A stretch of 64,000 nucleotides of DNA from the NCBI RefSeq assembly GCF_000367525.1, contig NZ_HF570956.1, forward strand, positions 1,305,185-1,369,184, read 5' to 3'. The DNA is from Phycicoccus elongatus Lp2 (GTDB lineage Bacteria; Actinomycetota; Actinomycetes; Actinomycetales; Dermatophilaceae). Shown here one piece after another: positions 13,414 through 30,874 of this stretch. The notes below the pieces were generated by a model. That model was not told where the DNA came from and searched no databases. It worked only from the letters and a program-made list of their open reading frames with translations. The translations under genes were made by a program, and so were the position numbers. Position 1 is the stretch's first letter. Each line of letters opens with the position of its first letter.

Positions 13414-13428
13414 ACCTTCTTCCTCTGG

Positions 13429-13470
13429 TCGGGCTGACAGGATTTGAACCTGCGGCCCCTTGACCCCCAG
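13429..13470 (-). other. attL: 3' half of the original tRNA-Pro gene
   Basis: This stretch encodes the T arm, the 3' acceptor strand and the 3' side of the anticodon arm of a tRNA-Pro. It breaks off after the 15-bp core CCCCTTGACCCCCAG (13456–13470). The matching 5' half is at 30934–30965 beside an identical core at 30919–30933. Joining the two gives a perfect 74-nt tRNA-Pro with anticodon GGG. It is therefore the left attachment site of the element and no longer a functional tRNA. Confidence 0.9.
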
Positions 13471-13563
13471 GCGTCCAGACGGCTCGATTCGAGCTGAAAG
13501 CCGCGTAGTTCCGCGGGTCAGATCATGCAGGGCACGTCATGAGATGCATGGTTTGCATGATTC

Positions 13564-13582
13564 TGGTCCCCTTTTGGTCCCC
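13564..13582 (+). repeat. Left arm-type integrase repeats (two copies of TGGTCCCC, 11-bp period)
   Basis: TGGTCCCC occurs at 13564–13571 and 13575–13582, about 100 bp inside attL. An identical pair lies at the right end (30631–30649), and inverted copies lie at 30717–30735. Repeats at one helical turn flanking a core are typical of the arm sites bound by the N-terminal domain of tyrosine integrases. This role is inferred. Confidence 0.6.
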
Positions 13583-13603
13583 CACGGAAATTATCGCGGA
13601 GGC

Positions 13604-15238
13604 TCACCAGCCTTGCCGCAAGACCTCTGCCTCTTCAAGACCTACTCGCGAAAACTCAGAGGACAGACGCTCCACCACCCTCTGCGCGTGATCAGTCTTG
13701 AGGTCGCCGACCCAGCGCCAAGACTTGCCTCTCCCTTTCACCTTCACCTCGGAAAACCGTCCGACTTTTCGGTACCAGCGAACTTGCACGGTTCCGGCTG
13801 GTCCCCCGTTGAAATCACGCATCAGAATCCGCGACGGCTTGGGCACTACCCGCAATCGCACGTAGCCACTTGATGCTTGAGGGTCGGGTACCGTCAAATC
13901 GCTCGGAGCGCGGTCGCCTTCGCTAACGACCTCAAGCGGCAACAACGGGAACATCCGGGACCCGTTGATCCTGACGCTGTCACAAAGTGGTTGGACACAC
14001 ACTGCGTACGTGCCTTCCTGTTCCACGATCGTTCCGAGCTGCATGACCGGCGAAGGCTTGGCATACCTGCTGCGTAGCGACATGCGCATTGAGAAGATCT
14101 GATCTGAACGCTGCTTCTCCTCTAGAGTCTCCACGAACAGGTGAGTTGCCTCGGCAGCGAGCTTCTTCTTTCCGATGCCAGCATCCTGCAACTCCTGCAC
14201 CGCTTCATGACTAAATCCTTCGGCAAGAAGCCGTAGTCGGAGTTCAGCGGTCATCGACTCGAAGGTCGATACGCCTCGCGAGCCAATCCCGCTCTTATGT
14301 TTTAGCCACTCACGGACCCGCGGTAAGCCCACATGCGACCCGACTTCATGGTCCTGTACGATCGCCGCTAGCTCCGAAGCAATCAGGCCTTCAACCTGTC
14401 GCTCGACGTCTTCTGGGTGGGCTAGCGATACGCGCTGGCCAAGCACGGCGCCATCGATCTCTGGCCCCAAGGCTGCCAGCAGTCGGTGAGCATCGTTGCG
14501 GATGCCGGCGAGGGCGGAGAGAGAAGCAGTCGTTACAAGCCCAAGACTGTGGCGACCGAACTCCTCGACAACCACTGTGGGCAGCGCGGAAATCGCCCGT
14601 CGGCGGTCAGCAAGCTCGGCCGGAATGCTCTGTACATGCTCCTTTGCGAAAACAGCAACGCGCACCGGGCCGCGGCTAAAAGCGACGTGACGATCATCGT
14701 CCCATTTCAGCTCATCCTCACCAAGGCTCTCACTCGTGGCGTTCGCGATGCGGTCCGTAATCTGTCTGAGGTCAGGTTCACCGGTATAGACGGTAACCAA
14801 CCGAAGACGTCGGCGCGGAGACTTGGTGTCTTCACGCAGAACCGCGCGAATGAGCTTTTCAGCCGTAGCACCATTGTCGCCGTTGAGGTTCCAATCGAGA
14901 ATAAGCGCGTCAGCTCGCTTCGCTGTCCGAACAAACGCCGGCCTGAAGTCTTCATTCTCTTCCGCCGACTGCGGAGACAAGATGGCGCATGACAGTGCCG
15001 CCTCCGCAAAGCTACGCGACACAGCTTGGACATCAAGTTCATCGCCCTCGGCCGAGGCCCCCGGAGCGACCAGTTTGAGCGCCGAACCTACCGGTGGAGT
15101 GTCATCGTCGGCCCAGTCTTCGTCTGCAGCCTGCTCCGGACCCGAATCTCTACGAAAGGCTTCGTCGTCGATCATCAAGATCGTCTGAAGGAACTCCAGC
15201 ACCTGGCGCCGTACGTGAAGCTCAAATCTCGTCGCCAC
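13604..15238 (-). CDS. Receiver-domain protein of the methyltransferase–GHKL cassette
   Basis: The 544-residue protein starts with a response-regulator receiver: acidic pair D24/D25 in LMIDDE, phosphoacceptor D115 in LILDWNLNG, a threonine in LVTVYTGE (T149 or T152) and lysine K199 in VFAKEH. An insertion of about 80 residues separates the first strand from the phosphoacceptor, unlike ordinary CheY domains. No HTH, GGDEF or nuclease motif is seen in the remaining 340 residues. Those contain a helical region and a beta-rich C-terminus (GTIVEQEGTYAVCVQPLCDS). The GTG at 15238 lies one base after the TGA of the GHKL gene, so it is translationally coupled and is likely phosphorylated by that kinase-like protein. 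Output function is unknown. Confidence 0.8.
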   Translation of the reverse strand: MATRFELHVRRQVLEFLQTILMIDDEAFRRDSGPEQAADEDWADDDTPPVGSALKLVAPGASAEGDELDVQAVSRSFAEAALSCAILSPQSAEENEDFRPAFVRTAKRADALILDWNLNGDNGATAEKLIRAVLREDTKSPRRRLRLVTVYTGEPDLRQITDRIANATSESLGEDELKWDDDRHVAFSRGPVRVAVFAKEHVQSIPAELADRRRAISALPTVVVEEFGRHSLGLVTTASLSALAGIRNDAHRLLAALGPEIDGAVLGQRVSLAHPEDVERQVEGLIASELAAIVQDHEVGSHVGLPRVREWLKHKSGIGSRGVSTFESMTAELRLRLLAEGFSHEAVQELQDAGIGKKKLAAEATHLFVETLEEKQRSDQIFSMRMSLRSRYAKPSPVMQLGTIVEQEGTYAVCVQPLCDSVRINGSRMFPLLPLEVVSEGDRAPSDLTVPDPQASSGYVRLRVVPKPSRILMRDFNGGPAGTVQVRWYRKVGRFSEVKVKGRGKSWRWVGDLKTDHAQRVVERLSSEFSRVGLEEAEVLRQGW

Positions 15239-15239
15239 C

Positions 15240-18179
15240 TCAAACCTCGCTCTCGTCCGGAAGAACGATCTCGAACCGAGCTCCTCGATCCGCGACGGGG
15301 GCGGCGAGGGTGATATCGGCACCGTCGCGCCGTAGGACCTCTCGCGCAACGAACAGGCCGTATCCCGATCCTGCGGGCTTTCGTGAAAAGCCCTGTTCGA
15401 AGACGGCCTCTTCATCGCCCAGGCTGATTCCGGTACCTGAGTCGGTTACGGTAATCACTCCAGGCTTTTTGTCGAGATAGATCACTCGATCCCCGGTGTA
15501 ACGACTAAGCCAATAGATGGCGTTATCAATCAGGTTGACAATTACCGGATACAGGGTCGAAGGGTACATACGAATACGCATTCCCTCAAACGCCTCAGAG
15601 ATGCTGAGCGTGATGCCTTGGTCGAGTAAGCGCTTCTCGAAAACATCATGAAGATAACGTTGAACGTCGACGCCACGTATCTCGACCGGCTCACGATAGA
15701 GCCGCCGATGAAGCGGAGTGAACAGCTTGAGGTATCCATCCAGATGATCGAACGAGACTCGCAGGTCCGTGTATAGGGGTCGCAAGCCGGCATTCTGTTG
15801 CGCCCACGATCGGAGTCTTCGCAAATTATCGCGAACTGACTTAATGCTGTTCTCGAACTCGTGAGTCACGATGTTGACAGCCATGCCGATTTGCACCAGT
15901 TCAAAGTCCTGTGCGGCACGATCAGTAAGCGCTTCAACGCGCGCCTCTAGCTGTTCCACTTGGTCGAGCAGGGATATGCGATCATTTCCGTCGCCTTCCG
16001 ACGACCATGCAACGGCACGTAGTTGCTCGGATATGGCGTTGAGCTCTTCTACTTGAGCGGCGGCCATACTCCGAACACGCCCTTCAAGCGAATTCCTCAG
16101 TAGTGTGAACGCGTTGTCATTCATGCTGGACACATCCGTCGCGCTCGCCTCCTGGAGCACGCCGACAGCAACATCCTCAAGAGCACGGTGAGCATCCCTG
16201 GCGACGTCCTTGGCTTGGCTTGCGACAGCGTTCGCACGTCCGCTGAGGTCCTGTCTCGCCTGGCCTGCGATGGTCCGACTCTCTGAAACTGCCTGACCAA
16301 TAGCCTGGTCGAGGCGGAGCCTCCTGTGCAATGCGGCGTCCAGGGCGAGGCCCGCCTCGCCAAGAACTGACTCGATCTCGCGTTCGGCCGGTTCGACAAC
16401 TGACGACAGAACCTCCGATCGAGCCGCTTCGTAAGCGACAGAACGACGGCTCAAGTCAGCACTCAACGCTACGCCACGGGGGCGCTTGACTTGGAGGTCT
16501 GAGGTCAGTTCACGAAGTTGCGTCCTAGCAGCCAGTTCGGCGCGAACGAGGCGGTCGGCCCCTGCCGCAGCGCTATCATCGCGCTTCGCTGTCTCAATGG
16601 CGGCCAGGATGCCGGCCCGTATTTCTTGAACTCTCGCTTCGGGAGCATGTGTGTCAACCGCATCAAAAAACTTGTCGAGCGCCGCGCTGTACTCTGATCG
16701 GCGGACGCGTACTTGTTTGCTTCGCGCTCGTCGCGCCTTTTCCATCCGTTCGTTTGCGAGACGCCCCTCCTCGTATATCTCAGCTTGAGCGCCACCTTCG
16801 CGGAAAAACTCGGCCGCGACCTGAAGCAGAAAATTCTGAAGAATAGCGCGGAACTGGCGATAAGCCTCGTTCGTGGCAAACCCTTCGCGCCCGGCCTTCT
16901 CTCGCAGGAGACTGTTCGCTTCGCGCGATATCTCGACCGCGCCGAACATGCGACGATAGGAGAAAAAGTGATCAGAAGCCGACTTAGTTCGCCTAAGCTC
17001 GACGTCCAACCAGTCGAACCTGCTGTCGCCGTATGGAAGGACTCTGATCCCGTCACGGTAGATGTAAAGTCCGCCGTAGCGATCTAGCTTTTCGATGATC
17101 AAGAAGTAGTCATTCGGGTCGAGCCTAGATTGCTTGGCCCTGCCCTGGATGTATGCGAGATTAAGCTTAAAAGGCCCGCATTGGGTCTTGACTCCTCGGG
17201 CGGCGGGCCAAGCGAGCGGAAACGGGATTGGATCGCCACCGAAAATCGATACCGTCCCCGTGAATTGCCCATACTCGTCAAACTGGCCCTGAAAATGATG
17301 ATCGGCATTCAGAAACTCTTCAACGGTAAAGAACTCCTGTTCGTCGATCAGATCGCGAATGTTGTCCGGAGCATGATGATCCCGAAATACCGTTCTCAGC
17401 TCCGGAGCGCTGTGACCAGGAGTCATCGTGTTTGCGAATCCGATTAGGGTTCTGAGCAACGGAGCCGCCTCTTTTGGGGTCGGCGGCTCAAGGTCGGCTT
17501 CTAAGTCTGGCGACGTGGGCAGGATTATGAAGGCCGTCCCGGCGTCGAATGTGGCTAGATCAAATCCCGCCATTCGAGCAATCTCGACGATATCGGTCTT
17601 ACTCCAGCGCGCAATGTCCTTCTCGATGCGCTCATAAAGACCTTCATCATCGACAGTAACAAGTTCGCGTAAATTCGAAAGAATCCGACTTCCCATACTC
17701 TGGACGTCGGGAGACTCACCCTCCGACAGTTCTTCGACTGGAACAGCGAGTTGCGATAGATCAGCATGGGATAGCTCAAAGACACCCCAATGGATCAGAG
17801 AGACAACGCGGCGGTGTCCACGCGCCTTCGTTATGACCAGGGTCTGTGGCCCGATTGCTGCGATCGCGAGCCGGCCGATCCCCTTTTCGCCCAGAATCGC
17901 GCGTTTGGGGCCGGGGTGAGCTTGGACCGTCGAACTCTGTGCCGACTTAAAGGAGGTGCCGAGTGTGAGCCAGCGTCCCTCGAAGTCTTGCCGCGACATC
18001 CCGTCGCCATCATCCCTGATTACAAACGCATCTTTGAACCTAATGAAGTCTGCTTCAGCTCTTTCGGCGTACGCATCATGCGCATTCTTGAATAGTTCGC
18101 TAATCGCGCTAGGGATTCCCGCGATCTGCTGTCGGCCCAGCATGTCGACGGCCCGGGCGCTCGTCTTGAACTCAGCCAT
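15240..18179 (-). CDS. Dual GHKL protein: MutL/MORC-like ATPase plus histidine-kinase module
   Basis: The 979 residues contain two separate GHKL ATP sites. The N-terminal one (residues 28–105) has ELFKNAHDAY, DDGDGM and GEKGIGRLA, the pattern of Hsp90/MutL/MORC ATPases. A long Glu/Arg/Ala-rich coiled-coil region (roughly 480–760) follows. The C-terminal module has an H-box-like VTHEFEN (H773), an N box NLIDNA (882–887), a G1 box DSGTGI (913–918) and a G2 box GSGYGL (937–942), as in sensor histidine kinases. No membrane helix is seen, so it is cytoplasmic. The ATG at 18179 overlaps the methyltransferase stop by 8 bases, and the receiver gene follows directly. It probably couples ATP-driven DNA or protein clamping to phosphotransfer; this is inference. 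Confidence 0.85.
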   Translation of the reverse strand: MAEFKTSARAVDMLGRQQIAGIPSAISELFKNAHDAYAERAEADFIRFKDAFVIRDDGDGMSRQDFEGRWLTLGTSFKSAQSSTVQAHPGPKRAILGEKGIGRLAIAAIGPQTLVITKARGHRRVVSLIHWGVFELSHADLSQLAVPVEELSEGESPDVQSMGSRILSNLRELVTVDDEGLYERIEKDIARWSKTDIVEIARMAGFDLATFDAGTAFIILPTSPDLEADLEPPTPKEAAPLLRTLIGFANTMTPGHSAPELRTVFRDHHAPDNIRDLIDEQEFFTVEEFLNADHHFQGQFDEYGQFTGTVSIFGGDPIPFPLAWPAARGVKTQCGPFKLNLAYIQGRAKQSRLDPNDYFLIIEKLDRYGGLYIYRDGIRVLPYGDSRFDWLDVELRRTKSASDHFFSYRRMFGAVEISREANSLLREKAGREGFATNEAYRQFRAILQNFLLQVAAEFFREGGAQAEIYEEGRLANERMEKARRARSKQVRVRRSEYSAALDKFFDAVDTHAPEARVQEIRAGILAAIETAKRDDSAAAGADRLVRAELAARTQLRELTSDLQVKRPRGVALSADLSRRSVAYEAARSEVLSSVVEPAEREIESVLGEAGLALDAALHRRLRLDQAIGQAVSESRTIAGQARQDLSGRANAVASQAKDVARDAHRALEDVAVGVLQEASATDVSSMNDNAFTLLRNSLEGRVRSMAAAQVEELNAISEQLRAVAWSSEGDGNDRISLLDQVEQLEARVEALTDRAAQDFELVQIGMAVNIVTHEFENSIKSVRDNLRRLRSWAQQNAGLRPLYTDLRVSFDHLDGYLKLFTPLHRRLYREPVEIRGVDVQRYLHDVFEKRLLDQGITLSISEAFEGMRIRMYPSTLYPVIVNLIDNAIYWLSRYTGDRVIYLDKKPGVITVTDSGTGISLGDEEAVFEQGFSRKPAGSGYGLFVAREVLRRDGADITLAAPVADRGARFEIVLPDESEV

Positions 18180-19275
18180 GATCGCCGAACCGGGACGCCT
18201 GCAAGCGCTCGACGATGTGCTCACCCATCGCTTTCGAGACGAGCACGGGCACGGCGTTTCCGATCTGTCGCGTCACCGACTTCAAGCTGCCGAGGAACTT
18301 GAAGTCCGGAGGGAAGGTCTGCAACAAAGCAGCCTCACGGACGCTGATCGCGCGGTGTTGCGTCGGATGCCCATATCGGCCGTTGGTTATGTCCGTGCAC
18401 TTAGTCGTGAGGACCGGCGCCGTGTCATCGTATTTCATTCGACCGTATGTGTCCTGGTGCCCCTTGCTGTTTCGGTGGCAATCTAGCCAGAGATCCGCCG
18501 GCCATTCCGATCTGCTTCCCCCCTCAGGAAGCGCCATGATTCGACGCAGGTTCAGATCGCCAAGTGCCCCGGAACGATGGAGTGGATCGTCTGGGTGCGC
18601 TTCGCCAGCCTCAATGGCTGGCAGGGAGCCGATCCAGTCTCGTACCGTTGAATACGGCTGTCGATCGCGTCCATGAGTTGGTTCGGGCAGGTCGATGGAA
18701 CCGTGTCGGGACGCGAGCAGAACCAGCCGCTTACGCCGCTGGGGCACACCGTAGTCGCGGCAATCTACTACCTCCCACCGAGTCGAGTAGCCAGCGCGAG
18801 CTAGGTACCGCAGGAATCGGTTCCAGGTGGAGCCACCGGGAATCTTCTGCAGACCCGGAACATTCTCGACAATAAGAGCATCCGGCTTTAGCCGATCCAT
18901 GAACGGAATGAGCGTGAGTAGCAACGATCGCTCTTGCGGACGGGCCCGCGATGCGGACGGTCGCATCGAACTGTATGGCTGACAAGGAGCGCAGGCAGAG
19001 AACACGAGCGGAGCATCCTTCTCGATCAAGTGGTCGAAGACATCAACCCCAAGCTTGCGAATGTCGACTTCGTGAAACTCCGCTTCTGGGAAGTTGGCTC
19101 GATAGGTAGCCGACGCCGCAGCATCGAAATCGACTGCCGCGGCGATTCGCATACCCGCGTCGCGCAGACCAGCGCTGGTTCCTCCGCAGCCGGCGAAGAA
19201 GTCAATGACAGTCGGCTGGTGTCCCAGATACTCAGGGACCGTAGAGGTGACGACCTCTGTCAGTGCCGCGGTCAT
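18172..19275 (-). CDS. C5 DNA cytosine methyltransferase
   Basis: A 367-residue complete Dcm/HhaI-type enzyme that transfers methyl from S-adenosylmethionine to cytosine C5. Motif I is DFFAGCGGTSAG (25–36), motif IV is APCQP with catalytic C98, motif VI is VENVP (136–140), motif VIII is QRRKR, and motif X is QIGNAVP near the C-terminus. The target recognition region lies between VIII and IX and is not interpretable by eye. Its start overlaps the upstream HTH gene in ATGA, and its end overlaps the GHKL gene by 8 bases. No restriction endonuclease is visible nearby, which is notable. Confidence 0.95.
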   Translation of the reverse strand: MTAALTEVVTSTVPEYLGHQPTVIDFFAGCGGTSAGLRDAGMRIAAAVDFDAAASATYRANFPEAEFHEVDIRKLGVDVFDHLIEKDAPLVFSACAPCQPYSSMRPSASRARPQERSLLLTLIPFMDRLKPDALIVENVPGLQKIPGGSTWNRFLRYLARAGYSTRWEVVDCRDYGVPQRRKRLVLLASRHGSIDLPEPTHGRDRQPYSTVRDWIGSLPAIEAGEAHPDDPLHRSGALGDLNLRRIMALPEGGSRSEWPADLWLDCHRNSKGHQDTYGRMKYDDTAPVLTTKCTDITNGRYGHPTQHRAISVREAALLQTFPPDFKFLGSLKSVTRQIGNAVPVLVSKAMGEHIVERLQASRFGDHG

Positions 19276-19475
19276 CCATCTCCTCCCTTCCGTCCACGCT
19301 TGCTATCGGCTCCGCGCACGAAGGACAGAACATCGCTCCGCAGGAAGCGCCACGCTCGCCCGACCTTCTCTCCGGGCAACGCGCCCGAGTTGGCTAGGGA
19401 CAGCACGGTCTTCGTGCTGACACGAAGAAGCGCTGCCGCCTCGTCGGTGGTCAACACCTCGTGCTCTTCCGTCAT
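19272..19475 (-). CDS. Small excisionase-type helix-turn-helix protein heading the cassette
   Basis: The 67 residues form a MerR-like/excisionase HTH: TTDEAAALLRVSTKTVLSL followed by a wing GRAWRFLRSDVLSFV. It is the first gene of the four-gene cassette, and its TGA overlaps the methyltransferase ATG. Start ATG at 19475 was chosen on domain fit; a long open frame upstream reads antisense into the relaxase region. It probably autoregulates the cassette, but it could also be a site-specific DNA-recognition subunit. It is not adjacent to the integrase, which has its own HTH partner. Confidence 0.85.
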   Translation of the reverse strand: MTEEHEVLTTDEAAALLRVSTKTVLSLANSGALPGEKVGRAWRFLRSDVLSFVRGADSKRGRKGGDG

Positions 19476-19509
19476 CTTCCCGCAATCTCTCACTGTCGGC
19501 CGTAAGTTC

Positions 19510-19515
19510 AGTCTA
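19510..19515 (-). promoter_or_regulatory. Possible -10 element for the methyltransferase cassette
   Basis: TAGACT on the minus strand lies 35 bases before the HTH start codon in the otherwise empty 150-bp gap that separates it from the relaxase gene. A convincing -35 hexamer is not seen, so this is a weak prediction. Confidence 0.3.
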
Positions 19516-19627
19516 GCCAGCGACACAGACGTCCCAGGCCCTAACCCGACGGCGCGCCGCGGGCAGGAGTGAGCTGCTGCCGGCGTGTCTGTGGGGGATG
19601 CACCACTGCTTGAACTCTCTCGACCCG

Positions 19628-21823
19628 CTAGGCGAGCCGATCGGATCGTTCGTCTGGATCGGGCTCGGGATGCGAACGCCGGAGCAAGTAGGCGAGTGTT
19701 ACGGGTCCGATCCAGAGAAACTTGAAGGCGTTCCAGACGAACAGCAGGACCAGCAGGTACAGCCAGCCGGGGCCGCCATCGTTGATGATCGTGGTGCAGA
19801 TCGCGGCCGCATAGAAGTAGACCGCGGCCAGGAGCATGGCGGGGATGCCCCACTTGAGGCCGGGCAGGGCTTTCGCTCCGGCCTTCTCGACCTCGCGGGT
19901 GATCCGGTCCAGCGAGGCGGTGCCGGCGAGGGAGGCTTCGTCGATGATGACGAGCTGACCCGCCTCGACCGTGGTTCCGTGCATGAGGTGGTTCTGCCAC
20001 CACTTCGCCGTGTTCTCGGTCGCGATCCCCAGATCGTCGGCGAGGACCTGCGCGGCGACCGCCGAGGGCGCGAGCCCGACCACGGACCCGGCGCCGTGCT
20101 CCTTCTCCCATGCCCGGCGCAGCGCGTTCATAGCGGTGGTCTTCCCGGCGCCTGCCGGGCCGACCAGCACGTCCACGACCCGACCAGAGACGGCGATCGC
20201 GGACAGGGCGGCGGCTTGATCCTCGCCGAGCACCCGGCCGCGGGCGTCGGGCGTGCGGGCGACCCGCTCCACCGTCTCCAACAGCACCGTGGGTCCGGTT
20301 GGCGCGTCGGCGCGGGCCAGGAGGCGGTCTTCGGCGGCCAGCAGCGCCTCGGACGAGAACAGCGTCGAGTGCCGAGGCCGGAACCGGGTGGTGCCGTCCG
20401 GGCGGCGGAACTTGAGCGGGCTGGTCGCCAGCTCCGGCGGAGTGAGCCGCAGAGATGCACGCTCGGCCGCGTCCACGACCAGGCCGGTGATCGCTTCGCG
20501 GTCTTCGATGCTGGCGAACCGCCAGCCCATCAACTGTCGGGAGGCTTCCGCGTGCAGGTTCCACCGGGTCCAGGTCGAACGCTTTTCACCGACCGTCTCC
20601 ATCACGGCCTGCCCGACCTCGCCCACCACGTCCAACGGCACATCATCGGCACGCAGCACCCGATGGGGAGTTGCACCGCTGGTGAGGGTGCGCGCCCATC
20701 CGGTCACGTTCTGGCCGAGCACGCGGCCGGCGCGCTGCCGCCACTCGCCGGTGAGGTCGGCCAGCGACCTGACCTGCTTCTCCGGCCTCGTGGTGAGCGT
20801 CGCTTGCGCCCGCAGTTTCAGCACCGTCCGCGCCGAGGGCTGCCGGCCGTGCTTGGCGACGTACTCCGCGATCAGGCGATCCTTCTCGGCCTCGATGTGC
20901 CGGGAGCGGGTAGAGAACTCGGCCACCAGCTCCTCGGGCACGCGCTCGACCTCCCACGCCGGGTTCCGATCCCGACCCCGCTCCCGCGCATCCCAACCCA
21001 GCCCGAGCGTGCGGGTCAGCCGGTCAGCCAGGGCCGCGTTGTACAGCTCGGAGACCGCCACGACCGCCGAGTGCATCGGCCGTCCGGCGAGAGTCCGCCA
21101 GCGGCCGTCTTGGACGGTCAGCACCTTGTTGCTGATGACGACATGGGTGTGCAACTGCGGGTCACCGGAGCGGCTGTCGTAGTGATCGAACGCCGCCGCG
21201 ACGACCCCGGCGACATCGACGTGTGCAACCGCTCCGTCCGGGCCGGTTGCACCGACACGGGTTGCTGCAACCTCGCGTTCGAGGAACGCAACCAGCTCTG
21301 CAAGCGCCGCATGATGCGCGTCCGCGATCAGCGCTTGCGTGCCCGCGTCCGCGACCGCCCAGATCGCGGAAACCGACTTCGGCACGCTGAACGTGAAGTC
21401 GAACCCCGCCACCGCACGTCGGGTCCCGCGCTCGGCTTCCTCCGCCTCGATCGCGGTCACTTCCTGTGCCCGCGCCGCTGGACCGAGTTCGGGATCGAGC
21501 GCGTCGACGCGCTGCTTGACCCGTTCGGCGATCGACGCGAACTGCTGGTAGGCGCGTCCGAGCGGTTCGCCGGTGATCGGGTCGTGACCCGTCCCGATCA
21601 AGAGCCGTAGTTGGGCCTCCGAGACCTGAGCACCTTCGCCCAGCTCGCCGCGCCCGAGACGGCCCAGGCCCGAGCCCATCCAGAACCCCGGCGGCGCGCC
21701 CGCCTCGGCGTAGTAGCGAGTCAGCGGCGTGCTGAGACTCCGGTCGCCGTCGCCCGCGGCGACCGACTTCAACAGGTACTTGTAGCCATCACCGGCCGAC
21801 ATCACACGCATCGAAACCGTCAC
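19628..21823 (-). CDS. MobF (TraA/TrwC) relaxase, truncated and fused to a small membrane protein
   Basis: The 731-residue frame starts at GTG 21823 with MSAGDGYKYL and a TRYYAEAG catalytic-tyrosine region, then the HUH motif LHTHVVIS, typical of relaxases that nick oriT. A RecD-like helicase follows with Walker A VGPAGAGKTTA and Walker B VIIDEAS. Directly after Walker B, at about 19,870, the sequence changes to ALPGLKWGIPAMLLA and a strongly hydrophobic segment with two or three membrane helices. That segment resembles a separate small membrane protein of actinobacterial mobile elements. Full MobF relaxases are usually well over 1,000 residues, so most of the helicase is missing. It looks like a deletion fusion, and conjugative function is doubtful. 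Confidence 0.88.
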   Translation of the reverse strand: MTVSMRVMSAGDGYKYLLKSVAAGDGDRSLSTPLTRYYAEAGAPPGFWMGSGLGRLGRGELGEGAQVSEAQLRLLIGTGHDPITGEPLGRAYQQFASIAERVKQRVDALDPELGPAARAQEVTAIEAEEAERGTRRAVAGFDFTFSVPKSVSAIWAVADAGTQALIADAHHAALAELVAFLEREVAATRVGATGPDGAVAHVDVAGVVAAAFDHYDSRSGDPQLHTHVVISNKVLTVQDGRWRTLAGRPMHSAVVAVSELYNAALADRLTRTLGLGWDARERGRDRNPAWEVERVPEELVAEFSTRSRHIEAEKDRLIAEYVAKHGRQPSARTVLKLRAQATLTTRPEKQVRSLADLTGEWRQRAGRVLGQNVTGWARTLTSGATPHRVLRADDVPLDVVGEVGQAVMETVGEKRSTWTRWNLHAEASRQLMGWRFASIEDREAITGLVVDAAERASLRLTPPELATSPLKFRRPDGTTRFRPRHSTLFSSEALLAAEDRLLARADAPTGPTVLLETVERVARTPDARGRVLGEDQAAALSAIAVSGRVVDVLVGPAGAGKTTAMNALRRAWEKEHGAGSVVGLAPSAVAAQVLADDLGIATENTAKWWQNHLMHGTTVEAGQLVIIDEASLAGTASLDRITREVEKAGAKALPGLKWGIPAMLLAAVYFYAAAICTTIINDGGPGWLYLLVLLFVWNAFKFLWIGPVTLAYLLRRSHPEPDPDERSDRLA

Positions 21824-21927
21824 CGTCGCGCCCCTTCCTCTGGCGCCAGGTGGGCGTGACACGACCAGTCAACGCCGCTCCATCACGCCGCCCTCGGGCG
21901 GCGTCGGCCTCGTCTGAAAGACGTGTG

Positions 21928-22791: not shown

Positions 22792-23349
22792 ATGACAGCA
22801 GATGCGACCGACTGGCTCGACCAAACGAGGTCGAAGCTGAAGCGTGGAAATGTGGTTCTGTTCCCCAAGAACAGTCCGCTGTTCGGTGAGCTGAGCCACA
22901 TCATCGACCGCGAGAGCCACAAGGTGATGGTTCTCTGGGCGTTCGACTTCGCCTCGCAGGCCGTCGAAACACTGAGGCGACGTTACCCAGAAGAGACGCG
23001 CCCACAAGTTGCTCTCGACACGACTCGTGCATGGGCGGCTGGCGAGGTCAAGATGCCAGTTGCAAAGCGGGCTATCCTGGCCTGTCACGCGTTCGCGAAG
23101 GAGTTGGAATCCCCCAGCGATATTGCCCTGTGTCATGCCGTCGGGCAAGCTTGCGGAGTCGTCCACGCGAATGGGCATGCACTCGGGTTTCCGGTTTACG
23201 ACCTCACTGCGATCGTGCTGGGTAGCGGAGTCGACAACTGTCGAGAACCTGTCGAGCGGCGTGTCAGCGAGTACATCGATCGCATCACGTACTGGCGGGA
23301 ACACCAGGCGGACTACAAGGGTCCATGGGCGCAGTTCATGACGCGATAG
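22792..23349 (+). CDS. Imm-5-like putative immunity protein
   Basis: The 185-residue all-helical protein has VLWAFDFASQAVETL, RRYPEETRPQVALDTTRAWA and an Ala/His-rich AKRAILACHAFAKE stretch with HANGHALGF. These match the Imm-5-like family often annotated as putative immunity protein. Family members are frequently encoded next to TioE-type MerR regulators, and one is present 80 bases downstream in opposite orientation. A purine-rich stretch precedes the ATG. No toxin is seen nearby, so a polymorphic-toxin role is unsupported; the actual function is unknown. Confidence 0.65.
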   Translation: MTADATDWLDQTRSKLKRGNVVLFPKNSPLFGELSHIIDRESHKVMVLWAFDFASQAVETLRRRYPEETRPQVALDTTRAWAAGEVKMPVAKRAILACHAFAKELESPSDIALCHAVGQACGVVHANGHALGFPVYDLTAIVLGSGVDNCREPVERRVSEYIDRITYWREHQADYKGPWAQFMTR

Positions 23350-24172: not shown

Positions 24173-24184
24173 CTTGTCGACAAG
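24173..24184. promoter_or_regulatory. Palindrome between the divergent TioE-type and Imm-5-like genes
   Basis: CTTGTCGACAAG is a perfect 12-bp dyad about 30 bases upstream of both start codons. TGGCA (24155–24159) and TGCCA (24185–24189) form an outer inverted pair around it. MerR proteins bind such dyads in long-spacer promoters, so this is a reasonable operator candidate, based on position and symmetry only. Confidence 0.4.
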
Positions 24185-24213
24185 TGCCAACGGATTATTC
24201 AAGGATACTATTG

Positions 24214-25164
24214 ATGAACATGGCACAGCACAGCGGCACCGTACCGGGAGACTTCGATCTGACGATAGGCGAGCTCCGCACCGTCGTGCGTTACGTGGTG
24301 ATGCATGCCGAGGACGTGCTCGATGTGTTCGAGCAGGCCGTGCCCGATGATCCGCGTCCCCGTGCCGCGATCGAGGCGGCCTGGACGTTCGTCAACGGGG
24401 CGAACCGAACCAAGCTGCAGCGCGTCGCGTCGCTCGACGCTCACCGGGCCGCTCGCTCTGCTCCCTCCGAAGCTGCACGGCTCGCCGCACAGTCAGCCGG
24501 GGATGCGGCGTCCGCGGCGTACCTGCATCCGATCGCTCAGGCGAGCCAGGTCGGTCACATCCTGCGTGCTGCGGCAAATGCGGCCCACATCGCGGAGCTG
24601 ACAGCCGGAGGCGACCCCACCCTCGGCGATGCGTTGCTGAACAGGTCTCGACAGCGAGCGACAGCGGTGCTCAGTGATGTCCTCCGCCGGTATCCGCACC
24701 CCCCGCGTGGGCGAAGTCGCGTCAGCCAGTTGATTCATGCACTGGATCAATCTTTGCGCCAGTCTGACGGCGCCGACCCAGGTCGAGCGCAGCTCGCGAA
24801 GGACCGGCCAAGAACCAAGACACCGGGCGCACTCACTCTCAGTGAGAACGACCGCCGAATCCTGGCCTTGTGGGCCGCTGACTGTGCCGAGCGTACGTTG
24901 CCGCTGTTCTTGGCCGAGGCGCCCGATGACCCGAGGCCACGCGAAGCTATCGAAGGAGCGGGAGGATGGACGCACACTGGCGGCTGGCGAGACACTACGG
25001 GCTGGCGAACCTGCTCGTGTTCCACAAGCTCACCGACTTGGAGAACGTCGGCGACGCAGGGTCGGCGAACCGGGCGCTGGCGAACAGCCTGCTGGCAAAT
25101 GCGGAGACGAGGATCGTCTACCGGCAGGAGACCGATCAGCTCGGCCCGACTGCCGCGGCGCTAG
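24214..25164 (+). CDS. Imm-5-like protein with a broken second domain
   Basis: Starts at ATG 24214 with AAGGAT seven bases upstream. The first 195 or so residues form a complete Imm-5-like protein (LTIGELRTVVRYVVMHAEDV, PDDPRPRAAIEAAWTF, RTKLQRVASLDAHRAA, HPIAQASQVGHILRAAANAA). A second Imm-5-like unit begins at WAADCAERTLPLF but stops after PRPREAIEG. From there the frame reads out of phase through a VirB4 remnant (GGWTHTGGW onward), giving an Arg/Ser/Thr-rich tail that is not a real domain. The break is near 24,960. The first domain may still fold; the C-terminus is an artefact of a deletion junction. Confidence 0.65.
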   Translation: MNMAQHSGTVPGDFDLTIGELRTVVRYVVMHAEDVLDVFEQAVPDDPRPRAAIEAAWTFVNGANRTKLQRVASLDAHRAARSAPSEAARLAAQSAGDAASAAYLHPIAQASQVGHILRAAANAAHIAELTAGGDPTLGDALLNRSRQRATAVLSDVLRRYPHPPRGRSRVSQLIHALDQSLRQSDGADPGRAQLAKDRPRTKTPGALTLSENDRRILALWAADCAERTLPLFLAEAPDDPRPREAIEGAGGWTHTGGWRDTTGWRTCSCSTSSPTWRTSATQGRRTGRWRTACWQMRRRGSSTGRRPISSARLPRR

Positions 25165-29166: not shown

Positions 29167-29378
29167 GCGACAAGACCGAGGCACTGGTCGTCTCGCCACT
29201 GCTGGACAGCCGGGAGGTGGCGGCGTACTTGAAGGTCTCGGAGTCCACCCTGTCGCGGTGGCGCTCAGCCGGCACCGGCCCGCCGTTCCTGCGGCTGGGA
29301 GGGATCGCCCGGTACCGGCTCGATGCGATGGACCGCTGGCTGAGCGAGCTGGAACACGACCATGCCTCGGAGATCTGA
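29163..29378 (+). CDS. xis: Excisionase-like helix-turn-helix protein
   Basis: The 71 residues begin at a GTG overlapping the DUF4913 stop. They carry SREVAAYLKVSESTLSRWRS and a wing IARYRLDAMDRWLSEL, a MerR/excisionase-type DNA-binding domain. It overlaps the integrase start by 17 bases, the usual xis–int arrangement. It probably directs excision of the element from tRNA-Pro by bending DNA at the arm sites. Confidence 0.85.
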   Translation: MSDKTEALVVSPLLDSREVAAYLKVSESTLSRWRSAGTGPPFLRLGGIARYRLDAMDRWLSELEHDHASEI

Positions 29379-30591
29379 GCCGCAGCCGACCGCTGAACCC
29401 AAGCCGGTCCCGCCGATCGGTGTGAAGGTCTCCACGGACATGGAGCGTCGCTCCTACGGCATCCGCGCCCGCGCCCGGTGGACGGACCCGACCACCAAGC
29501 GCCGGGTGATCCGATCGGAGATCGTGCGGGACGAAGCGGCCGCGCACGCGTTCTTCGACCAGCTCCGCAACTCCTCGACCAAGGGCATGGACGTGTGCAT
29601 GACGCTGCTGGAGTTCGTCACCTCCATCGGCGACCGGTGGGCGCGTGGCCTGGACCCGACCTCCACCGGCGAGACCTACGGGTACGGGCTGAAGCTGCGG
29701 GTGCTGCCCGCGCTCGGGCATCTGCCGGTCACCCAGATCACCGCGGGGATCATCGACCGCACCATTGATGAGTGGGAACAGCGTCACGGCGCCTCAACCA
29801 TCAAGAACACCATCGCCCCGCTCGTGCGGGTGCTTGATGAAGCCGTGCGGGACGGGCTGATCCAGATCAACCCCGCGAAGAACCGTGCCAAGCGGAGCCT
29901 GAACCGCAACGCCTTCCGCAGCCAGTCCGCCGAACACGCCTCCCCGCGGGCACACGCAATCCCGGACATGAAGACCCTCAACCGCCTCGCCAGGGCGTGC
30001 GGAAAGGTGCATCAGTCCTACAGCGACTTTGTGATGCTCGCCGCGCTGCTCGCCGCACGGTCCTCGGAAGTGTCCGGGTTGCAGGTAGGGGACGTGGACT
30101 TCAGTAAGAACCTCGTCGTGATCCGCCGGCAGGTGTTCCCCGGCAAGGGTGGCCTGGTCACCAAGCCGACCAAGAGCCGCAAGGAACGCCGCGTGCCGAT
30201 CCTGGAACCGCTCCGTCCTGTGCTGAAACGCCTCACCGATGGCAAGCAGCCGGAGGACTCGTTGCTGGTCGGCCCGAAGGGCGGCTACCTCACCACCGCG
30301 ACCGTCCGCGACGCCACCAACTGGGACGGCGTCGTCGCGAAGCTCGGACTGCCGGACCTCACCCGGCACGGGCTACGTCACACCGGGGCGACCTGGATGG
30401 CCGATGCCGGTATCCCGCTGCACGTCCTCCAAGACATCCTCGGGCACGCCTCGATGGAGACCACACGCGGCTACCTGCACCCCGACGACCGTCACCTCGC
30501 CTCCGCCGCCGAGCAGGCCAACGCCTTCCTCTCCGCCGCCGGACAACGCAAGCACGCCCGGCGCAGCAGCCCCGCGACCAGGGGCCTGTGA
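29362..30591 (+). CDS. int: Tyrosine site-specific integrase of the element
   Basis: A 409-residue phage-type integrase. An N-terminal arm-binding region (YGIRARARWTDPTTKRR) and a SAM-like core-binding domain precede the catalytic domain. Catalytic residues are R233 (AARSSEV), a lysine near 268–271, H336 and R339 (TRHGLRHTGATW), H362 (GHASMETT) and nucleophile Y371 (RGYLHPDD). All are present, so recombination activity is likely retained although the conjugation genes are damaged. It is 210 bases from the element-borne tRNA-Pro and about 330 bases from attR. Confidence 0.95.
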   Translation: MPRRSEPQPTAEPKPVPPIGVKVSTDMERRSYGIRARARWTDPTTKRRVIRSEIVRDEAAAHAFFDQLRNSSTKGMDVCMTLLEFVTSIGDRWARGLDPTSTGETYGYGLKLRVLPALGHLPVTQITAGIIDRTIDEWEQRHGASTIKNTIAPLVRVLDEAVRDGLIQINPAKNRAKRSLNRNAFRSQSAEHASPRAHAIPDMKTLNRLARACGKVHQSYSDFVMLAALLAARSSEVSGLQVGDVDFSKNLVVIRRQVFPGKGGLVTKPTKSRKERRVPILEPLRPVLKRLTDGKQPEDSLLVGPKGGYLTTATVRDATNWDGVVAKLGLPDLTRHGLRHTGATWMADAGIPLHVLQDILGHASMETTRGYLHPDDRHLASAAEQANAFLSAAGQRKHARRSSPATRGL

Positions 30592-30797: not shown

Positions 30798-30800
30798 ACG

Positions 30801-30874
30801 TCGGGCTGACAGGATTTGAACCTGCGACCCCCTGACCCCCAGTCAGGTGCGCTACCAAGCTGCGCCACAGCCCG
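30801..30874 (-). tRNA. tRNA-Pro (anticodon GGG), complete copy carried by the element
   Basis: The minus-strand sequence folds as a full cloverleaf of 74 nt without encoded CCA. It has acceptor CGGGCTG/CAGCCCG, D arm GCGCAGCTTGGTAGCGC, anticodon stem CCTGA/TCAGG with loop CTGGGGG, and T arm GCAGGTTCAAATCCTGT. The anticodon GGG reads CCC and CCU proline codons. It lies inside attL–attR, so the element brought it. Its anticodon stem differs from the disrupted chromosomal copy (CTTGA/TCAAG), showing a separate origin. Confidence 0.95.

Follow-up and report, generated by a model that had tools for sequence, protein, structure and literature searches.

Do the four closely packed genes carried by a mobile element of Phycicoccus elongatus Lp2 form one functional unit, and what might such a unit do? 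We analyzed a 64,000-nucleotide stretch of contig NZ_HF570956.1 (hereafter the window), in which these genes form a minus-strand operon in the order HTH gene, C5-cytosine DNA methyltransferase (C5 MTase), GHKL kinase, and receiver protein (Table 1). The coordinates bore out the operon described in the initial annotation: the HTH and MTase genes overlap by 4 nt, the MTase and kinase genes overlap by 8 nt, and a 1-nt gap separates the kinase and receiver genes. The GC content of the module was approximately 58% compared with 66–71% in its surroundings, in agreement with the A/T-rich composition noted earlier relative to the rest of the element. Predicted promoter and terminator signals were no more frequent than expected by chance, and the tRNA was the only RNA family detected. 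On comparison with the copy in Dermacoccus abyssi, dN/dS ranged from 0.05 to 0.08 across all four genes (HTH, 0.076; MTase, 0.066); by this measure, purifying selection acts on all of them. Because the gene order recurs across phyla and dN/dS lies in this range, the arrangement is more than a chance one, and the proposal that the genes constitute one functional unit was supported.

Table 1. Features of the module and of the element that carries it (positions in the window).
Feature	Position	Strand	Evidence or remark
Attachment-site repeat	13428..13470		Copied 3' end of tRNA-Pro, at the module end of the element
Response_reg_2 receiver protein, 544 aa	13604..15238	-	Pfam Response_reg_2, 3.9e-45
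HEF_HK kinase, 979 aa	15240..18179	-	Pfam HATPase_c_3 + HEF_HK + HATPase_c
C5-cytosine DNA methyltransferase, 367 aa	18172..19275	-	DNA_methylase PF00145, 7.7e-58
HTH_17 / excisionase-like small regulator, 67 aa	19272..19475	-	First gene of the operon; Pfam HTH_17, 7.4e-15
Cargo block common with Dermacoccus abyssi	13421..19862		Module and adjacent attachment end; blastn, 79.7% nt identity
Intact tRNA-Pro(ggg)	30800..30874	-	Integration target; 30800-30842 matches 13428-13470

The module is real, conserved, and already published. HEF_HK (PF19191) and Response_reg_2 (PF19192) have been reported to make up a two-component-like pair with links to C5 methylases and restriction-modification (R-M) genes (Bellieny-Rabelo et al. 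2021, PMC8011034). The initial annotation had presented the locus as an undescribed system; this was ruled out by that publication, in which HEF_HK, Response_reg_2, and the C5 MTase appear together. The existence of the gene pair was thus already known, and the module is a further copy of the published family. Both domains scored far over their Pfam cut-offs (HEF_HK, 98 bits vs 24.1; Response_reg_2, 154.6 bits vs 27), their genes are adjacent, HATPase_c_3 is N-terminal and HATPase_c is C-terminal in the kinase (group 1 architecture), and the C5 MTase lies upstream. The HEF_HK proteins of group 2 in PMC8011034 are devoid of the N-terminal ATPase. The copy in P. elongatus differs from the published system in having an additional HTH gene and in that no Vsr or HNH partner was found. 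The MTase is a neighbourhood gene in PMC8011034, whereas it is a near-constant third gene in our comparison. Our literature search found no published functional test of the HEF_HK/Response_reg_2 system and no experiment linking it to phage or plasmid resistance; the phage-defence literature yielded only PMC8011034.

A receiver-anchored scan with the receiver alignment yielded 44 loci from genome contigs and 7 from viral contigs (51 loci), which by their record titles span at least 11 bacterial phyla. The kinase gene was located directly upstream of the receiver gene in 50 of the 51 loci, the remaining locus being cut by a contig end. Of the 45 loci whose flanks were long enough to be informative, 44 had a C5 MTase, mostly upstream on the same strand and downstream in a few. 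The co-occurrence that had been suggested as a check was therefore found, and the homologues do not usually occur apart from each other. Vsr relatives, called by clustering (Pfam verified two of the members), were found no more than five genes away in 23/51 loci, and HNH-type nucleases were found near a few. Since the MTase, kinase, and receiver are near-constant and the Vsr and HNH genes are variable, the core consists of three genes and the nucleases are optional. This methylase, kinase, and receiver core is new in the present analysis.

Besides the Vibrio centre, a separate kinase-anchored sample of 369 genomes contained three sets complete with MTase, kinase, and receiver: L092, which is typical, and L093 and L095, which are divergent. 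A further hit (L094) was without either partner, and three weak hits were without the module. The divergent kinases of L093 and L095 (HEF_HK, 31–35 bits) still adjoin an MTase and a diverged receiver; the two loci form a remote branch within the three-gene set. Exactly one HEF_HK was found in each of 24 genomes. Between-locus distances were correlated for all three pairs of proteins (Spearman: MTase–kinase, 0.49; MTase–receiver, 0.42; kinase–receiver, 0.69; p 0.002). The distribution was patchy, the receiver being carried by 2/188 genomes of the family and 3/396 of the phylum. A plain listing of the genes around the loci includes integrases, R-M genes of type I, and HNH nucleases, and the module also occurs on predicted viral contigs. 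The sole informative locus without an MTase (L049/L091, Rhizobium rhizogenes) encodes a kinase of 765 aa without the N-terminal ATP-binding half; for this co-loss at a single locus, we claim no link between the ATPase and the MTase.

The HTH gene had been counted as part of the conserved set, a view that its distribution contradicts: it is present only in the window and in the D. abyssi copy (L012), which gave the only phmmer match beyond the window among the loci compared. On this sequence comparison, the HTH is a lineage-specific add-on outside the conserved set, and it is probably the repressor or activator of the operon. As in MADS, a small MAD1-related HTH gene stands first and adjoins a methyltransferase gene. 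However, the HTH scored 49.4 bits with the MAD1 model, under the NCBIfam cut-off of 80 bits, the methylase is of the C5 type, and the four proteins yielded no other mad gene; MADS was therefore rejected. The MTase of the module was the sole C5 MTase match in the P. elongatus genome, in which no Vsr gene was found. With a single C5 MTase and no Vsr detected, this host would have no Vsr repair of 5-methylcytosine that is deaminated at the sites methylated by the module.

The kinase consists of an N-terminal MORC/Hsp90-type GHKL+S5 ATPase (residues ~10-469), a long coiled coil (~440-760), a DHp domain with H773, and a CA domain (874-976). In the predicted structure (mean pLDDT 78), residues 10-469 fitted MORC3 (5ix2; Z 18.1, rmsd 4.2, 324 residues aligned), and the N-terminus also fitted SMCHD1 (6mw7, E 1.1e-9) and Hsp90; MORC3 and SMCHD1 were the closest structures, indicating likeness to MORC ATPases. 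Residues 768-978 of the same model matched histidine kinases (Z 17-19). The earlier observation that both ATP sites keep their key residues extends to the whole family sample: the N-terminal site (E28, N32, D35, D56, G58, G60, and G97-K99-G100-G102), the C-terminal site (N882/D885/N886 and G937/G939/G941), and H773-E774 were each conserved in 40/40 sequences. The label "dual-GHKL kinase" holds as far as the two ATP sites are concerned; according to the structure matches, the protein is better described as a MORC/Hsp90-type ATPase plus a histidine kinase, and it models as one such ATPase joined to one true histidine kinase.

The receiver protein comprises a REC domain (residues 16-232, predicted phospho-acceptor D115), a helical middle region (~207-390), and a conserved, beta-rich C-terminal output domain (~400-544; window positions 13604-14056). 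Structure prediction (pLDDT 84.5), which had been recommended for the C-terminus, recognised the REC domain at the N-terminus, where residues 16-232 matched REC domains with a Z of 11.6 to PmrA; the C-terminus was without a sequence match. The REC residues D24, D115, T/S152, and K199 were conserved in 40/40 sequences (T or S at 152). With the catalytic residues of both partners conserved to this extent, the kinase is likely to pass phosphate to the receiver, as had been suggested. The output domain carries the motif C414-x4-C419-D-x2-R423, in which C419 and R423 occur in 40/40 sequences. No Pfam domain was found in the C-terminal 340 residues, searches of Pfam (E up to 5), PHROGs, and PDB sequence profiles returned nothing consistent that would identify the effector chemistry of the output domain, and the domain was found in no other protein across 24 genomes. 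Foldseek with the whole receiver model as the query gave no match below E 0.001 in PDB and BFVD, a result that does not prove a new output fold because one domain fills the match list in such a query; the VIA-align rows for the model likewise cover residues 16-232 only.

Several named systems share parts of this organization. MORC proteins in R-M operons (paraMORC; Iyer et al. 2008, PMC2292703) have the same N-terminal GHKL+S5 with an intact ATP site, and lie beside C5 methylases and Vsr/HNH genes; here, in contrast, a histidine kinase is fused C-terminally, a receiver gene follows, and there is no helicase gene. The module has an R-M-type C5 MTase in common with Type II R-M systems, and the MORC-type half of its kinase resembles the N-terminus of the BbrUII/HgiDII restriction enzymes, but it has a kinase and a receiver, and no restriction nuclease gene was found. 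In Shedu VcSduA (PMC12137116), a GHKL ATPase is likewise proposed as the controller of a defence effector; that effector is a fused PD-(D/E)xK nuclease, whereas the module has a histidine kinase, with the receiver encoded by its own gene. In PADLOC-DB 2.0.0, no model matched the receiver and the kinase matched one model in part, at 21.9 bits (90 residues of a REase_II model), so that the comparison advised earlier ended with neither protein matching a model over its full length. Druantia and DISARM were rejected, as only the MTase matches DruM/DrmMII profiles and the HTH, kinase, and receiver do not. A Pfam scan detected no nuclease family in the four module proteins and ten ORFs of the element. 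Because the scan covered these, the claim that no restriction nuclease is present is limited to the module and the genes near it.

The placement of the module on mobile DNA was supported by an integrase, a tRNA-Pro gene, and a 43-bp repeat. The element is a tRNA-Pro integrant bounded by a 43-bp direct repeat with 2 mismatches; its tyrosine integrase gene (29362-30591) adjoins tRNA-Pro, and the module occupies the opposite end. The D. abyssi copy lies at the same attachment site, that of tRNA-Pro, and its element is shorter. The TrwC relaxase gene (19628-21862, minus strand) is truncated in its helicase part, and its frame enters a membrane-protein fragment near 19862. The similarity to D. abyssi begins near this same position, which points to a cargo exchange in which the incoming block truncated the relaxase. 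The element may no longer be able to mobilise itself. A partial second copy of the 5' half of tRNA-Pro was observed from 30938 onward, outside the intact tRNA (25-base exact match to 30847-30871); it is perhaps the remnant of an older integration. The element also carries two neighbouring putative immunity genes of the Imm5_like type (22792-23349 and 24184-25164, plus strand), the second of which is apparently frameshifted near 24960.

What would such a module do? We consider that there is about an even chance that it is a methylation-guarded DNA-surveillance phosphorelay on mobile elements, probably restricting foreign DNA or causing an abortive response. The co-conservation of MTase, kinase, and receiver, the phosphorelay residues, and the fusion of ATPase and kinase are supported by sequence comparison and predicted models; from there onward, we infer DNA-state sensing, phosphate transfer, effector action of the output domain, and a defence purpose. 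The C5 MTase, from the function of its family, would mark host DNA. The MORC-type ATPase of the kinase would dimerise, engage DNA, and respond to unmarked or abnormally structured DNA, and the long coiled coil would relay the ATPase state to the DHp/CA histidine kinase. H773 is predicted, from the conserved residues and the models, to be autophosphorylated and to hand its phosphate on to receiver residue D115, and phosphorylation may then free or activate the C-terminal output domain as an effector or effector recruiter. A Vsr repair nuclease or an HNH nuclease would be an optional partner that joined in some lineages; the system as a whole would probably defend against mobile DNA. For the defence phosphorelay we count the three-gene core, the single HEF_HK per genome, the 40/40 residues, the domain fits, the correlated distances, the patchy distribution, the integrative element and viral contigs, the integrase, R-M, and HNH neighbours, and the purifying selection. 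Against it, Vsr by 23/51 loci would suit mismatch repair equally, and the ATPase at the kinase N-terminus could act without binding DNA.

The 2021 authors speculated that the pair is a signalling system that controls R-M (PMC8011034). A two-component system of this kind would regulate the R-M/methylase or other genes according to nucleotide or DNA state, with the receiver as a regulator and not an immune effector. This proposal is in keeping with HK and REC domains that are canonical and retain their conserved residues, and with the reported stress upregulation in Pectobacterium (PMC8011034). However, sequence profiles detected no known DNA-binding output family in the receiver, most loci are without a separate R gene to control, and a MORC-type ATPase is not the sensor one would expect where simple regulation is the task; we therefore regard it as unlikely. 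Alternatively, the locus could be an R-M system in which the C-terminal domain of the receiver is a cryptic restriction enzyme activated by phosphorylation. Such an enzyme would suit a near-constant MTase with an optional separate nuclease, the near-invariant C419, D420, R423, E538, and R541 of the output domain (39 or 40 of 40), and the BbrUII/HgiDII-like half of the kinase, but a nuclease motif or family match is absent, the paired conserved Cys residues are not those of a standard nuclease, and the whole-model Foldseek search against PDB returned nothing below E 0.001. We hold this explanation, too, to be unlikely.

A role in repair or epigenome maintenance, in which a MutL/MORC-like ATPase, Vsr, and the C5 MTase police T:G mismatches arising from 5-methylcytosine deamination, draws on the Vsr relatives lying within five genes, on the membership of MutL among GHKL+S5 ATPases, and on a published link between R-M, MORC, and Vsr (PMC2292703). 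With more than half of the loci devoid of Vsr, a host genome that has the MTase and in which no Vsr was found, and no obvious repair role for a phosphorelay, it is very improbable. Returning to the defence phosphorelay, a stronger form of it would be an immune class in which C5 methylation serves as the self mark, a MORC-type ATPase checks DNA state against it, and a His-Asp phosphorelay carries the signal to a receiver whose output domain has a new effector fold, restriction being switched on by the cascade with no dedicated nuclease. The idea that no dedicated nuclease is needed was supported; we hold the class as a whole to be a tentative and rather doubtful proposal.

If the defence phosphorelay is true, a His-Asp phosphorelay would control a methylation-guarded immune response. 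It would also provide a bacterial MORC-type ATPase with a testable signalling output, which bears on chromatin and DNA-state sensing by MORC proteins. The module lends itself to direct testing, given its core of three genes, its invariant residues H773 and D115, and an output domain without a match.
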